From assembly GCA_002083775.1 (NCBI GenBank), contig MTEI01000001.1, positions 248,001-312,000 of the forward strand: a DNA stretch of 64,000 bases. The letters are read 5' to 3'. The notes below the pieces were generated by a model that was not told the origin of the DNA, searched no databases, and saw only the letters and a list, made by a program, of their open reading frames with translations. This document shows, one piece after another, positions 49,467 to 64,000 of this stretch. Numbering within the stretch: position 1 is the stretch's first letter; each line of letters begins with the position of its first letter. This stretch comes from Rhodoferax ferrireducens. GTDB taxonomy: Bacteria; Pseudomonadota; Gammaproteobacteria; Burkholderiales; Burkholderiaceae_C. Position numbers and translations under genes: made by a program.

Positions 49467-51242
49467 TCAGGCGTTGAACTGCAGTGCAGCCAGCCCGGCG
49501 TACACGCCACCCAGGGTGACCAGTTCGGCATGTGTGCCCTGTTCAACCAAATGCCCCTGGTCGATGACCACAATGCGATCAGCCTTCTGGACGGTGGCCA
49601 GGCGGTGCGCAATCACCAGTGTGGTGCGGCCGCGCATGGCGGACTCCAGCGCGGCCTGAACCATCCGCTCGCTTTCAGCATCCAGCGCGCTGGTCGCTTC
49701 GTCCAGCAACAGCAACGGTGGGTTTTTCAAAATCGCGCGCGCGATGGCAATGCGTTGGCGCTGGCCACCGCTCAGGCGAACGCCCCGTTCGCCCAGAAAC
49801 GTGTCATAACCCTGCGGCAGGTCGTTGATAAAGACGTCTGCGAAGGCCGCCACAGCGGCTGCCTTCACCTCTTCGTCGCTGGCATCAGGTCGGCCATAAC
49901 GAATGTTTTCCAGCGCGCTGCTTGAAAAGACGACAGCGTCCTGTGGCACGATGCCAATGTGCTGGCGCAGATCCGCCAACAGCATGTCGCGGGTGGGCAC
50001 ACCGTCAAGCCGGATGCTGCCACTTTGCGCGTCGTAGAACCTCAGCAGCAGTTGAAACACGGTGCTTTTGCCTGCCCCACTGGGGCCCACCAGCGCCACC
50101 GTCTGCCCCGCAGGCACCGTCAAAGAAAATTCACGCAAGGCAGCTTGGTTGGGGCGAGAGGGATAATGAAACGTGATTGAATCAAATTCAATAGCACTTC
50201 CCCCTTTAGGTATAAGGGCTAGAGCCGGATTTGATGGTGATATTATGGGTGACTGGCTGGCCAGCAATTCCATCAGCCTTTCGGTGGCACCTGCAGCCCG
50301 CAATATATCGCCATACACCTCACCCAGCACGGCGAAGGCACTGGCCAGAATGATGACGTAAATCACGGTTTGACCCAGGTGCCCCGCGCTGATGGTTCCG
50401 GCCAGCACGGCTTGCGTGCCTTGGTACAAGCCCCACAGCAAGGCAGCGCTGGTGGCAATGATGATGAACGCCACCAAAGCCGAGCGCGTACCAGAGCGCT
50501 TGGCGGCCACTTCAAAAGCGGTTTCGGTGGCGGTGGTGAAGCGGTCAGTTTCGCGCTGCTCGGCGGTATAGCTCTGTACCACCGGGATGGCGTTGAGCAC
50601 TTCAGCGGCAATGGCACTGGAGTCTGCAGCGCGGTCCTGGCTGGCCCGCGAGAGCTTGCGCAAGCGCCTGCCAAATGCCGCCGCAGGCACCACGATCAGA
50701 ACCAGAATCAACAAAACCTGCGCCATCACCACGGGGTTGGTCCACACCAGAATGACCAACGCGCCCGAACCCATCACCAGATTGCGCAAGCCCTGGCTCA
50801 ACGATGAACCCACCACCGTTTGCACCAGCGTGGTGTCCGCCGACAGGCGTGACAGCACTTCGCCAGTTTGAGTGGTCTCAAAAAACTCCGGGCTTTGCTG
50901 CAAGACATGGGCGTACACCGCGTTGCGCAGATCAGCGCTGACACGTTCGCCCAGCCAGCTCACCATATAAAAGCGTGCCGCCGAGAAAACCCCCAGGGCT
51001 ACGGCCACGCCAAACAACAAGGCAAAGTGACCGCGCAAGGCCATCAGCCGCTCGCCAGGCTCGCCTTGTGTCAGTCCCCCGTCAATCAGATTGCGAAGCG
51101 CCAGTGGAAACGCCAGTGTGGTCACCGCAGCCATGATGAGGAACAACAGTGCCAGACCAATGCGCAACTTGTGCGGCCTGAGAAATGGCAACAGGCCAGA
51201 CAGTGATTTGGGAGGGCGGGTGGACTGGGCGTCGGCAGGCAT
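49467..51242 (-). CDS. ABC exporter, fused permease-ATPase (MsbA/multidrug type)
   Basis: A 591-residue half-transporter. The type IV exporter membrane domain is about 20-320 with six spans. The ATPase has Walker A GPSGAGKS (about 386), signature LSGGQRQRIA (about 490), Walker B LLLLDEATSALD and switch HRLA. It probably works as a homodimer exporting lipids or drugs; MsbA itself is not assured. The linker at about residues 334-355 (NPALALIPKGGSAIEFD) is encoded partly by a dyad repeat. Confidence 0.9.
   Translation of the reverse strand: MPADAQSTRPPKSLSGLLPFLRPHKLRIGLALLFLIMAAVTTLAFPLALRNLIDGGLTQGEPGERLMALRGHFALLFGVAVALGVFSAARFYMVSWLGERVSADLRNAVYAHVLQQSPEFFETTQTGEVLSRLSADTTLVQTVVGSSLSQGLRNLVMGSGALVILVWTNPVVMAQVLLILVLIVVPAAAFGRRLRKLSRASQDRAADSSAIAAEVLNAIPVVQSYTAEQRETDRFTTATETAFEVAAKRSGTRSALVAFIIIATSAALLWGLYQGTQAVLAGTISAGHLGQTVIYVIILASAFAVLGEVYGDILRAAGATERLMELLASQSPIISPSNPALALIPKGGSAIEFDSITFHYPSRPNQAALREFSLTVPAGQTVALVGPSGAGKSTVFQLLLRFYDAQSGSIRLDGVPTRDMLLADLRQHIGIVPQDAVVFSSSALENIRYGRPDASDEEVKAAAVAAFADVFINDLPQGYDTFLGERGVRLSGGQRQRIAIARAILKNPPLLLLDEATSALDAESERMVQAALESAMRGRTTLVIAHRLATVQKADRIVVIDQGHLVEQGTHAELVTLGGVYAGLAALQFNA
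50178..50240 (+). repeat. Dyad repeat, in-frame copy inside the ABC exporter gene
   Basis: Plus strand: TGAATCAAATTCAATAGCAC, CCCCTTTA, centre, TATAAGGGCTAGAGCCGGATTTG. It keeps the AATAGC, CCCTT and AAGGGCTAGAG order of the family, antisense to the gene, at the join between membrane domain and ATPase. Confidence 0.65.
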
Positions 51243-59855: not shown

Positions 59856-59999
59856 ATGTCGAATCAAACCTCTATTTCCGGACTGACTGACGAGGAAGCC
59901 CAGGAGTTCCACAAGTTCTATGTTCAAGGCTTTGTGGGATTCACGGCAGTTGCTGTGGTTGCGCACGTTCTTGTTTGGGCTTGGCGTCCCTGGTTTTAA
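59856..59999 (+). CDS. pufB: Light-harvesting 1 beta polypeptide PufB
   Basis: A 47-residue protein: cytoplasmic [20 protein letters not shown], then a single span with the BChl-ligand His37 ([15 protein letters not shown]). The terminal WAWRPWF is the usual LH1-beta ending. GAAGGAG lies eight bases before ATG 59856. It pairs with PufA and BChl a in the ring round the reaction centre. Confidence 0.97.
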
Positions 60000-60030
60000 T
60001 GCTGTCGTTTGGTTTTAAGGACTAGCTGTC

Positions 60031-60255
60031 ATGAATCAAAACCCTCATATACAAAGCGCTTTTTTGCACGTAGAGAAGTCGCCCGCGTTTTGGATGATTT
60101 TTGCACCGGTATTCGCTATCTTCTTTGTTGCATCCGTTCTGGCTTCGCTAGTAGGTGTGCAGTGGAGATCGTTGTTGCCCGGCGCTGAAAATTCAAAAGG
60201 CTTTATTGAAGGTGTGAGTTCAGCGGTTTACACACTCATGTCATACATTATTTAG
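60031..60255 (+). CDS. Unidentified 74-residue single-span protein between pufB and pufA (orf74)
   Basis: A small membrane protein with a short N-terminus ([18 protein letters not shown]), one hydrophobic span (about 19-43, [20 protein letters not shown]) and a 30-residue C-terminal part with [11 protein letters not shown] and an end [12 protein letters not shown]. Its only two His lie outside the span, so it is not a normal BChl-binding LH subunit. AAGGA lies nine bases before ATG 60031, and its stop forms part of the pufA ribosome site (TAGGAGAA), coupling the two. Single span plus LLPxxEN and amphipathic tail recall PufX in layout only; PufQ or the LH1 gamma subunit are other models. Not recognised by sequence. 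Confidence 0.75.
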
Positions 60256-60266
60256 GAGAAATGACC

Positions 60267-60467
60267 ATGTGGAGAATTTGGCGTTTGTTCGACCCTATTC
60301 GGGTTATGGTTGCTCAAGGGATTTTCCTGTTTGCGTTGGCAGCGATGATTCACCTCATCTTGCTGGGTACCAACAAGTTCAACTGGCTCGATGGCCAACA
60401 CAAAGCAGGCGCAGTTGCCGTTCAAAACGCACCGCTGCCAGCAACAATTCCTGCAGCAGGGTCTTAA
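60267..60467 (+). CDS. pufA: Light-harvesting 1 alpha polypeptide PufA
   Basis: A 66-residue protein starting [17 protein letters not shown], one span with BChl-ligand His29 ([17 protein letters not shown]), then an Ala/Pro-rich tail. ATG 60267 is chosen over 60261 because TAGGAG spacing is better and LH1-alpha normally begins MW. Confidence 0.97.
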
Positions 60468-60485: not shown

Positions 60486-60519
60486 GCAAACGGGCCCAAA
60501 AGTTTTGGGTTTCGTTTGC
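60486..60519 (+). promoter_or_regulatory. Intercistronic puf mRNA hairpin between pufA and pufL
   Basis: GCAAACG plus CCCAAAA pair with TTTTGGG plus CGTTTGC, joined by two G-U pairs, for a stem of up to 16 bp. R. capsulatus puf has a hairpin at the same place that protects the LH1 part of the message, giving more LH1 than reaction centre. Same role inferred. Confidence 0.8.
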
Positions 60520-60580: not shown

Positions 60581-61405
60581 ATGGCGATGCTCAGCTTTGA
60601 AAAGAAGTACAGAGTTCGTGGGGGAACTCTGATTGGTGGTGACCTTTTCGATTTTTGGGTCGGCCCCTTCTACGTCGGTTTTTTTGGTGTCACCACATTG
60701 TTTTTCAGTGTGTTGGGCACGCTCATGATTCTTTGGGGTGCATCGCAAGGGCCAACCTGGAATCTTTGGCAGATCAGTATTGCGCCACCAGACCTGTCTT
60801 ATGGTTTGAGAATCGCCCCGCTTCTTGAGGGAGGGTTGTGGCAACTGGTCACAGTCTGCGCGATTGGTGCATTTGTTTCCTGGATGCTCCGAGAAGTCGA
60901 GATTTGCCGCAAGCTTGGCATGGGATTGCATGTGCCACTTGCTTTTGGCGTGGCGATTCTCGCTTATGTCACGTTGGTGGTAATCCGCCCTGTATTGATG
61001 GGTGCATGGGGGCACGGTTTCCCTTACGGTATTTACAGTCACCTGGACTGGGTTTCCAACGTTGGCTACCAATACCTGCATTTCCACTACAACCCAGCGC
61101 ACATGCTGGCGATCAGTTTTTTCTTTGGCACCACGTTCGCGTTGTCTCTGCACAGCTCCTTGATCATTTCTGCTTCCAACCCGAAAAAGGGTGAACAGGT
61201 GTGCGCCCCAGAAGCTGAAGACACTTTCTTCCGCGACATCATTGGTTATTCCATTGGCACCTTGGGTATCCACCGGCTCGGTTTGTTTTTGGCGCTCGCA
61301 GCCGTGCTCTTCAGTGCACTGTGTATTGTGATCAGTGGCCCGTTCTGGACACGTGGGTGGCCTGAGTGGTGGGGTTGGTGGCTGAATATGCCCATCTGGA
61401 ATTAA
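60581..61405 (+). CDS. pufL: Photosynthetic reaction centre L subunit
   Basis: A 274-residue five-span subunit starting [20 protein letters not shown]. BChl ligands His154 (SHLDW) and His174 (NPAHML), iron ligands His191 and His231, and QB proton-path Glu213-Asp214 are all present, each +1 relative to the standard mature numbering. It holds the special pair, bacteriopheophytin and QB with PufM. Confidence 0.98.
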
Positions 61406-61421: not shown

Positions 61422-62399
61422 ATGGCTGAATATCAAAATCTGTTTACGGTCGTTCAACCTGTGGGCGCTGTGCACCACGGTGTTCCTCTCGGTAAAGGCA
61501 ATGAACCGCGCTTTGGTGAACCAGTTCAGTTCCATTTGCTGGGTCGTCTCGGTAACGCTCAAATTGGGCCCATTTACCTCGGAACGCTCGGCGTTGCCGC
61601 AGCGGTCAGTTTCACGATCGCCTTCGTCATTGTCGGGATGAACATGTTGGCGTCGGTTGGCTGGGATCCTATCCAGTTTGTTCGCCAGTTGTTCTGGCTG
61701 GCTTTGGAGCCACCGCCGCCAGAGTATGGTCTGAAAATGCCTCCGTTGAATCAGGGCGGTTGGTGGCTGATGGCTGGCTTTTTCCTGACAGCTTCCTTGA
61801 TTTTGTGGTGGCTGCGTATTTACCGCCGCGCACGTGAGTTGCACATGGGAACGCACGTTGCCTGGGCCTTTGCTGCTGCAATATGGTTGTATTTGGTGTT
61901 AGGGTTCTTTCGCCCGATTCTGATGGGCTCTTGGAGCGAGGCTGTACCGTTTGGCATCTTTCCGCACCTGGATTGGACGGCAGCTTTTTCACTGCGCTAC
62001 GGTAATCTTTTTTACAACCCTTTCCATGCTTTGTCTATTGTGTTTCTTTACGGTTCAACGCTGATATTTGCGATGCACGGTGCGACGATTTTGGCTGTGA
62101 CCCGTTTTGGTGGTGAGCGCGAGATTGAGCAGATTTTTGACCGCGGCGGTGCCTCTGAACGCGCTGCTTTGTTCTGGCGTTGGACGATGGGTTTCAATGC
62201 CACGATGGAATCCATTCACCGCTGGGCTTGGTGGTTTGCCGTGTTGTGCCCACTCGTTGGCGGTATTGGCATTCTGCTCAGCGGTACGGTAGTGGACAAC
62301 TGGTATCTGTGGTCGATGAAGCATGGCGTCGTTCCCCCCTATCCCAGTGTTTTCCCGCCTGCTGTTGACCCTGCTCTCCTGATTGGAGTGAAACCATGA
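61422..62399 (+). CDS. pufM: Photosynthetic reaction centre M subunit
   Basis: A 325-residue subunit. His182 and His202 bind BChl, His219 and His266 the iron; Glu in REIEQ (about 236) is the fifth iron ligand. Trp254 in [12 protein letters not shown] stacks on QA. AGGAG precedes ATG 61422, and the stop overlaps pufC by ATGA. Confidence 0.98.
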
Positions 62400-63433
62400 C
62401 TATGACATCGACTTCCCTGCGTCTCCTGGTTCTCAGCGGTGTGGTGTTACTGGCTGCTTGCGAGCGACCCGTTCCTGATTCAGTACAGCGCGGGTACCGC
62501 GGTACAGGCATGCTGCAGGTGTACAACCCGCGCATTCTTGAACCCATCACCAAGGCCAACTTACCACCTGTTTCGCTGGCTCCTGCCAGCGCGGAAGGAC
62601 CCCGCGCGTCTCAAGTGTTCCAAAATGTCAAAGTTTTGGGCGACACCAGTGCCGCCGAGTTCACCCGCATCATGACGGCCATGACCGAATGGGTTTCTCC
62701 CAAGGAGGGTTGTAATTATTGTCATAACCCAGAGAATTTCGCAGACGATAACTTGTATACCAAGGTTGTATCGCGCCGCATGTTGGAGATGACGCGTCAC
62801 ATCAACACAGACTGGAAGGCACACGTTGCTGAGACCGGTGTCACCTGTTACACCTGTCACAGAGGACAACCTGTGCCCTCAGAAATTTGGTTCAAGGAAG
62901 CACCTCAGGCTGTTGGGTCTAACTTTATTGGTGACGCTGCGGGTCAGAATATTGCCGCTCTCAGCGTCAAATATGCTTCGTTGCCCAGCGATCCCTTCAC
63001 GCCCTTCCTGTTAGATGCCAAGCCGATCCGTGTTTACGGCACCACGGCATTGCCATCCGGCAATAAAGCTTCGATCAAACAGGCTGAATGGACCTACAGT
63101 CTGATGACACACATGTCTTCAGCATTGAATGTCAACTGCACTTATTGTCACAACACGCAATCGTTTGGTGAATGGGAGGGCGCTCCCGCGCAGCGTGTGA
63201 CGGCGTGGCATGGCATCCGGCTGGCCCGGGGTTTGAACGTTGATTACCTAGAGCCGCTCACCAGCGCGTTCCCTGCGAATCGGCTAGGGCCCACTGGGGA
63301 TGCTCCAAAAGTGAATTGCGCGACTTGTCACCAAGCTGCCTACAAGCCTTTGAATGGTGCGCCTATGCTCAAGGACTACCCTGAACTGGCAGGGCCACGG
63401 CCGCCAGTGACGGCCACAGTAGCAGCCAACTAG
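62396..63433 (+). CDS. pufC: Reaction centre tetraheme cytochrome c subunit PufC
   Basis: A 345-residue periplasmic lipoprotein. Lipobox LAAC (Cys22). Four haem sites CNYCH (106-110), CYTCH (151-155), CTYCH (248-252) and CATCH (308-312). It re-reduces the photo-oxidised special pair. Presence of PufC, with no pufX after pufM, fits the betaproteobacterial pufBALMC type. Confidence 0.97.
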
Positions 63434-63529: not shown

Positions 63530-64000
63530 ATGAATGCAAAGACAAATGTGGCGAAGGACCTGTCGGGCGTCGTTGTGGTGCTGCTGGTGGATTATTTGAC
63601 GCAACATCGTGCTTGGGGCTGGATGCGGCTTGTGCAAGGCCCGGCGACGCTCAAGGATGTGCCGGGATTGTTATTCGCCAAGGTCATGGGCAGCGGTCAT
63701 GGAGGCGGTTTTGGGCTAAGACCCAGTGGTAGCCACCAAGGCTTGGTCTGCCTGTTTGAGGATCAACGGGCGGCAGAGGAGTTTTGTCTGGGCGACCAAG
63801 TACGCTCAATTGTTGATCATGCACGTGAACACTGGTTGAGCATGATGACGATAACCTCTGCCAGGGGGCAATGGGATCAACAATCTTGGGGTGTAACCCC
63901 GAGCGACTGCTTGGTTTCCTCGGCTGGAGATCATGAGCCGGATGTGTCACGCGGACCAGTGGCTGTTCTTACACGGGGTACTATCCGCCCAGCCAAGGCG
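63530..64000 (+). CDS. crtA: Spheroidene monooxygenase CrtA (3' end outside window)
   Basis: 157 residues are visible from ATG 63530 to the window end with no stop. The order HRAWGWMRLV, DVPGLLFAKVMGSGHGGGFG, QGLVCLFEDQRAAEEF and VAVLTRGTIRPAKA follows CrtA, a haem monooxygenase making keto-carotenoids (spheroidenone) under oxygen. AAAGG is nine bases upstream. Co-oriented with pufC, 96 bp apart. Confidence 0.87.
   Translation, partial: MNAKTNVAKDLSGVVVVLLVDYLTQHRAWGWMRLVQGPATLKDVPGLLFAKVMGSGHGGGFGLRPSGSHQGLVCLFEDQRAAEEFCLGDQVRSIVDHAREHWLSMMTITSARGQWDQQSWGVTPSDCLVSSAGDHEPDVSRGPVAVLTRGTIRPAKA

Follow-up and report, generated by a model that had tools for sequence, protein, structure and literature searches.

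ORF74, a very probable paralogue of the LH1 beta subunit without its bacteriochlorophyll ligand, encoded between pufB and pufA in Burkholderiales

The genes for the beta and alpha subunits of light-harvesting complex 1 (LH1), pufB and pufA, are separated in Rhodoferax ferrireducens by a small third gene, and the question raised by this locus is what that gene encodes and what its product does. The window, i.e. the whole stretch of DNA analysed, comprises 64,000 nucleotides of contig MTEI01000001.1 (positions 248,001 to 312,000). The gene, ORF74 (also ORF2), occupies positions 60031-60255 of the window on the forward strand, with an ATG at 60031, 74 codons and a TAG at 60253-60255. An initial annotation had proposed a 74-codon gene with a ribosome site of its own at this place and both are present, the site being read from the sequence as AAGGA (60017-60021, forward strand), 9 nt upstream of the ATG. 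What that annotation missed is that ORF74 is almost certainly, judging from sequence comparisons, a paralogue of the LH1 beta subunit. It is without the histidine that serves as bacteriochlorophyll (BChl) ligand, which is a serine in this species.

The gene itself is already in print as an orphan (papers given by PMC number are cited from excerpts of their text). ORF2 of Rubrivivax gelatinosus is described as having no known function and was rejected as the origin of the alpha gene pufA2 (PMC12817894). By position, this ORF2 (strain IL144) and ORF74 of Roseateles depolymerans (RD2015_RS05155) are the same gene as that of the window. The excerpts of the two papers concerned draw no relation to beta, to the long-form betas or to the genes at the pufQ position that are described below (PMC12817894, PMC10037100), and a naming of ORF74 as a beta paralogue was not found in the excerpts of the open-licence literature searched. 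ORF74 is read here as a member of a known family, LH1 beta, that is without the defining pigment ligand and probably has a new job.

Kinship with the LH1 beta subunit

A profile of nine ORF74 proteins matches the long-form LH1 beta chains 8z81_B (E 3e-15), 9m8m_B (E 1.1e-11) and 7xxf_B (E 1.3e-11) in the PDB, and all 38 PDB sequences that it retrieves up to E 10 are named light-harvesting or antenna. The window protein as a single query also finds 8z81_B (E 2.6e-5), and the profile recognises the pufB product of the same genome (E 4.8e-6). hhalign scores ORF74 against the long-form beta at 99.5% (E 9.7e-23) over 62 columns, from residue 12 to the end and with the C-terminal extension included, and against the short beta at 97%, compared with 0.9% for alpha and 0.7% for the reversed long beta. 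The NCBIfam pufB model NF040862 matches 22 of 30 members of the family (best E 1.5e-6) and PF00556 three of nine (best E 0.32); neither is found on the window protein, for which every Pfam and NCBIfam model stays below its cut-off. A Pfam match to Tmemb_185A below the cut-off (E 0.007) was set aside as it looks like a match to the span.

The BChl-ligand histidine is present in all 117 unique betas and in none of the 108 unique ORF74s, unique meaning after removal of identical letters from two overlapping collections of loci. In ORF74s this column is occupied by Gln (74), Ser (14), Thr (12), Glu (2), Ala (2) and by Phe, Arg, Leu and Gly (1 each), and the other histidine column of the betas holds His in 116/117 betas and 5/108 ORF74s. 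Gln is a possible weak ligand of BChl. The initial statement that the product cannot bind BChl is thus correct as to the missing histidine but too strong, with Gln at the site in most homologues and Ser in this species. Much of the remaining beta pattern is kept. Column 31 is aromatic in both groups, column 35 is Phe or Tyr in all ORF74s and in 67/117 betas, and column 42 of the ORF74s is Ala in 104/108 and Ser in the remainder. The W-R-x-W border is recognisable from columns 52-53 onwards, with Trp and Arg in 107/108 each and the second Trp in 101/108 (Leu in this species).

As first annotated, the protein has a single span (about residues 18-41) that is free of His, the only two histidines being residues 6 and 13. 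The AlphaFold model, with a predicted local distance difference test (pLDDT) score of 72.5, has helices at 18-41 and 58-73. Conservation across the family is strongest in the border and turn, W-R-x-W-L-P-G-A-E, and in the C-terminal helix that follows; mean entropy is 0.79 bits for residues 42-53, 1.30 for residues 54-74, 1.89 for the span and 3.04 for the N-terminus, which is nearly free. In the window this part, as delimited by entropy and the model, covers residues 45-74 (60163-60252, forward strand) with the turn W-R-S-L-L-P-G-A-E, and is common to the long-form betas. The latter, i.e. the three PDB chains named above and those of five Burkholderiales loci (L188-L192), share with ORF74 the span, the W-R-x-W border, the P-G turn and the C-terminal helix. 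Unlike ORF74, which accompanies a short His-bearing beta, the long-form betas of the five loci retain the ligand histidine and are the sole beta found between bchZ and pufA.

The ORF74 profile also reaches chain 4 of PDB entry 8k5o (E 0.0025), a 105 aa antenna-type chain listed as a single copy for this entry, which is the core complex of Halorhodospira halochloris according to PMC12817894. It is a possible structural precedent for a beta relative that occurs as one copy.

Distribution, selection and origin

ORF74 is matched in 8 of 59 relatives, the genome of the window itself not counted. In an even sample of the order Burkholderiales, 48 of 399 genomes carry reaction-centre genes, and in 38 of these ORF74 follows pufB; whenever the contig also shows pufA, ORF74 lies between the two (in G087 pufA is off the contig). 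Five of the 48 are without ORF74 and encode one long beta, which bears the His (G064, G201, G215, G289, G319), three combine a short beta with a beta-like gene located upstream of pufB (G104, G224, G255), and two are cut by contig ends so that their state is not determinable (G182, G336); this sorting is our own, from match tables and a reading of the loci. Among the 351 genomes without a PF00124 match there is one full-length ORF74, beside pufBA at a contig end (G310), and four weak partial matches with E values of 0.0017-0.0093 (G257, G287, G294, G379). The order pufB-ORF74-pufA on one strand is found in all 115 loci that show the three genes, a set with some redundancy, since the two collections share genomes. 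No insert between pufB and pufA was present in 31 loci sampled outside the order (26 + 5, the near-duplicate genome G790 left out). The initial premise that the two genes are normally adjacent therefore stands outside Burkholderiales, but the insert is the norm within the order.

A lack of homologues in relatives or a dN/dS (the ratio of nonsynonymous to synonymous substitution rates) near 1 would have spoken against the initial reading, and neither was observed. ORF74 is under purifying selection, with a median NG86 dN/dS of 0.14 and a range of 0.05-0.36 (30 pairs, out of 31 submitted). Of 127 homologous loci, 114 show a Shine-Dalgarno-like motif in the 20 nt that precede the gene, all have 9-22 nt between its stop and the pufA start, and 76 have the stop where the ribosome site of pufA begins (by a loose pattern). 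No full-length match contains an internal stop and nine columns are invariant across 30 rows. The nearest named homologue among the best 80 of 189 relatives, which make up the collection of related loci, is from Rhodoferax antarcticus (88% identity), and others come from Rubrivivax gelatinosus (L082, L087) and R. benzoatilyticus (L086). Searches of plasmid records (tblastn) and PHROGs gave no match.

A tree of 39 of the 108 ORF74s, 26 of the 102 short betas, all 14 long betas and nine proteins of the pufQ-position group unites the 39 ORF74s in one clade (support 98/94) and places the pufQ-position proteins in a separate one (100/99); its inner forks are weak, owing to the few columns and a bootstrap that had not settled. 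Most simply, ORF74 was derived once from a long-form beta with its periplasmic P-G-x-E turn and C-terminal amphipathic helix. In the simplest reading a long beta was duplicated, one copy becoming the short pufB, which kept the histidine and lost the extension, and the other becoming ORF74, which kept the extension and lost the histidine. A PufM tree was built from 79 of 81 rows, omitting one near-duplicate and one row whose state is unknown, and it does not include the long-beta genome G201; in it, the 47 ORF74 rows lie on one side of a branch. With a support of 25/17 this branch agrees with a single gain of ORF74 without demonstrating it.

A second type of pufBA, with the alpha form MWR.WR..DPRKA...HLI.IS.DRYN, is present in some Burkholderiales (L137:1-597, L141:4338-4943, L135, L180, L184, L008). 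The ORF74s of L135, L141, L180 and L184 group with the ORF74s of L032 and L038, although a tree of PufM places L135 and L141 away from that genus. This mismatch hints at an exchange of the pufB-ORF74-pufA cassette.

The puf neighbourhood and expression

All puf genes of the window lie on the forward strand. pufB (59856-59999; NF040862, E 4.8e-25) encodes a short LH1 beta of 47 aa that ends in WRPWF and has the ligand histidine. The stop codon of ORF74 overlaps the ribosome site of pufA in the TAGGAG at 60253-60258, as read from the sequence and as the initial annotation had it. pufA (60267-60467; NF040861, E 3.6e-18) more likely starts at the ATG at 60267, which gives MWRIW as in relatives, than at the first ATG at 60261. 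The hairpin that the same annotation placed between pufA and pufL is real (60486-60518, forward strand): the segment 60468-60580 folds with -34.9 kcal/mol (z -3.3), a stability reached by none of 200 shuffles. It is followed by pufL (60581-61405; PF00124, E 2.5e-97), pufM (61422-62399; matched to solved M chains) and pufC (62396-63433; PF02276, E 3.3e-143). Upstream of pufB, bchC and bchX are named by NCBIfam, and two Oxidored_nitro genes are taken for bchY and bchZ from gene order. On the bchC side of the photosynthesis genes there are an NAD-glutamate dehydrogenase of 1586 aa (PF05088, 43970-48730) and an ABC exporter-like gene (49467-51242, reverse strand). An open frame 3' of pufC (63530-64000) leaves the window; neither Pfam (E up to 1) nor PHROGs (E up to 0.1) contains a match to it.

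ORF74 had been expected to be made at LH1-like levels. ORF74, pufA and pufB are the three most reduced genes in a Roseateles sigma-factor mutant (PMC10037100). In support of the expectation, ORF74 and pufBA of Roseateles are stated to be co-transcribed in a major 1-kb transcript (PMC10037100, citing Suyama 2002). Against it, the codon adaptation of ORF74 relative to 11 ribosomal genes is 0.538, the lowest of ten puf and bch genes (pufB 0.658, pufA 0.608); stretches of the same length are as low in 5% of 276 cases from bch genes and 13% of 146 from pufLMC.

What ORF74 may do

The best explanation as a whole, a beta paralogue that has taken on a role in assembly, is one we hold with even confidence. 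The role itself, that of a beta-mimic which pairs with alpha without BChl and assists or caps the assembly of LH1, is put forward tentatively, a little under an even chance. As the pigment-holding residue is lost, ORF74 probably helps to build or shape the ring and is not used to capture light. ORF74 would be made right before alpha, its stop lying inside the pufA ribosome site. Beta chains have a cytoplasmic N-terminus and a periplasmic C-terminus; the border motif kept in ORF74 suggests the same orientation, and the protein would be inserted into the membrane like a beta. Being made next to alpha, with the beta residues kept and the ligand absent, it should pair with alpha without carrying the B880 BChl of the ring. 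It would then serve LH1 assembly rather than extend the pigmented ring, either by holding nascent alpha until a pigmented beta arrives or by capping the ring at a single site or a small number of sites, and its working part would be the periplasmic turn and helix. The lowest codon adaptation of the set favours a low copy number, albeit as a weak argument.

Several points weigh against this proposal. The predicted orientation comes from homology, and no protein, mutant or structure of ORF74 was found. The AlphaFold model is only fair at its pLDDT, and a Foldseek search of the PDB returned six matches, none with E <= 0.001, an outcome that is not informative for a 74 aa protein with one span. 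A mirror-tree comparison started from 80 loci, of which 76 have all five genes and 72 were kept. In it the distances between ORF74s correlate more closely with those of pufL (Spearman 0.46) and pufM (0.34) than with those of pufA (0.31) or pufB (0.20). Once pufL and pufM are controlled for, the partial correlation with pufA falls to 0.02, a value reached by 192 of 500 permutations, so that a specific co-evolution of ORF74 with alpha is not visible; the outcome for beta is likewise negative. At least five sampled phototrophs outside the order (L202, L208, L219, L284, L286) have a short beta and no such gene was detected near their puf genes; a function of this type is therefore not universal. 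Low codon adaptation also sits poorly, again as a weak argument, with a subunit of many copies.

An unlikely but credible alternative is that ORF74 is the Burkholderiales counterpart of PufQ and acts in porphyrin flux or pigment supply, outside LH1. PufQ of Rhodobacter binds ferrochelatase and supports BChl synthesis, and some purple bacteria are without PufQ, their branchpoint control being described as an open question (PMC5725709). The two proteins are alike in size and layout, with one span, a conserved C-terminal part and a gene in the puf operon. They differ in that pufQ lies upstream of pufB whereas ORF74 follows pufB inside the pufBA segment, and the C-terminus of PufQ is predicted to be cytoplasmic (PMC5725709). 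ORF74 has no match to the PufQ family PF05398 and scores 30% against it in direct hhalign comparison, which does not sustain the PufQ model of the initial annotation as a family assignment; the long beta scores 0.2-0.4% against PufQ. PF05398 exceeds its cut-off in 9 of 80 genomes, all of one family (f95) and none in the order. The initial remark that no pufQ is seen here holds for the whole genome, where the best place scores 12.3 bits (cut-off 22.1) and is away from the puf genes.

The region where pufQ would be expected supports this alternative further. None of 85 ORF74 loci (four with less than 700 nt in view) has a span-bearing frame of 55-159 aa just upstream of pufB, compared with 13 of 34 loci without ORF74. 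This count takes in frames of 55-159 aa with a hydrophobic stretch and misses longer ones, and it was checked by a profile search of 58 genomes, which detects a His-poor beta-like protein upstream of pufB in 13 of them (E 1.2e-8 or better). The empty position in ORF74 loci is also in keeping with the preferred beta-mimic reading. In genomes with ORF74 or a lone long beta the same profile retrieves at most those proteins or pufB (best about E 2e-5). Five further loci yielded two more such pufQ-position genes and a weak third. The group occurs in G104, G224, G255, G449, G780, G793, G820, G910 and genomes of family f78. In hhalign it scores 98.4% against ORF74 (11 rows, E 9.6e-15) and 97.7% against the long beta. 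Its members resemble ORF74 in being His-poor and in their layout and C-terminal helix region, but are encoded upstream of pufB and form their own clade. By eye, Arg occupies the site of the beta histidine in 10 of 12 rows. The G820 gene (L282:443-757) has the histidine, with Ala-His and W-R-G-W at beta spacing, and is a possible intermediate between LH1 beta and this group.

Another gene at the pufQ position (L287:417-716, from G1043) resembles classical PufQ and, weakly, also ORF74. Without this bridge the pufQ-position group scores 16-20% against PufQ (an early, smaller set gave 72-76%). Once the bridge is included in the PufQ set, PufQ reaches 94% against the group, up from 20%, and 87% against ORF74; with the bridge in the group instead, the group scores 78% against PufQ, and reversed-profile controls of these comparisons remain at about 1% or less. 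As PufX also reaches 29-49% with the group, values that depend on a single bridging row are no proof of a link to PufQ, and a deeper link between ORF74 and PufQ is suggestive only. The idea that each operon needs exactly one protein with the C-terminal extension was also considered and fails outside the order, where some genomes have a long beta plus an upstream gene and others a short beta and neither.

It is distinctly unlikely that ORF74 is a quinone gate, of which one copy replaces a beta and keeps a gap in LH1, in the manner of PufX or protein-W but with no kinship to either. The ring could be terminated by a pigment-free beta, and in 25 sampled genomes, four of them from the order, the PufX family PF11511 is restricted to f95 (4 of 25). 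PufX resembles ORF74 in size and in having one span. Membership of ORF74 in that family is not supported, with hhalign scores of 9-12% and no PF11511 match in its own genome; the initial annotation had listed a PufX-like gate among its models. pufX moreover follows pufM (PMC9640540), a place taken by pufC in the window. No protein-W or other ring-gap chain is so named among the 38 PDB sequences retrieved up to E 10, a result obtained with no W profile built. Spirilloxanthin is the primary carotenoid of Roseateles depolymerans and Rubrivivax pictus (PMC12654162), and pores that do not depend on PufX are described for rings containing fewer carotenoids (PMC5347945), both of which count against such a gate.

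There is little chance that ORF74 is a gamma-like subunit, many copies of which lie between the beta chains and stabilise LH1. The co-transcription with pufBA in Roseateles agrees with this, and Rhodopila, a BChl a species, has 11 copies of a gamma-like chain (PMC9640540). That chain comprises 22 residues and its gene is away from pufLMC (PMC9640540), whereas ORF74 is a beta-derived protein of 74 aa with low codon adaptation; the two are compared here by size and gene position alone. Finally, a decaying, non-functional second copy of pufB, as the lost ligand histidine and the low codon adaptation might suggest, deserves next to no credence and is already refuted by the selection data (the dN/dS median, the absence of internal stops, the invariant columns and the kept ribosome sites).

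Set beside the preferred reading of ORF74 as a beta paralogue that aids assembly, a wider one is possible, if on the unlikely side: ORF74, the pufQ-position genes and classical PufQ may form one family of LH1 betas that lost the pigment ligand, perhaps twice, and now steer BChl supply and antenna assembly. The two losses would fall between pufB and pufA and upstream of pufB. PufQ would be a retired antenna subunit and ORF74 its counterpart in bacteria thought to be without one, and the ancestral long beta of Burkholderiales would have been divided between two proteins, a short beta with pigment and one without pigment that kept the periplasmic extension. The beta origin of ORF74 itself bears on the printed question of how purple bacteria without PufQ balance haem and BChl (PMC5725709).

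The main text of a 2023 review of reaction centre-LH1 structures has no occurrence of Rubrivivax, Rhodoferax, gelatinosus or betaproteobacteria, and an order with many freshwater phototrophs may thus hold an unrecognised component of the core complex. Some caution is due, as 9m8m, the solved complex with the closest reaction-centre M chain, bears a long-form beta. An orphan gene beside well-studied antenna genes gains an origin, very probably as an LH1 beta without its pigment ligand.
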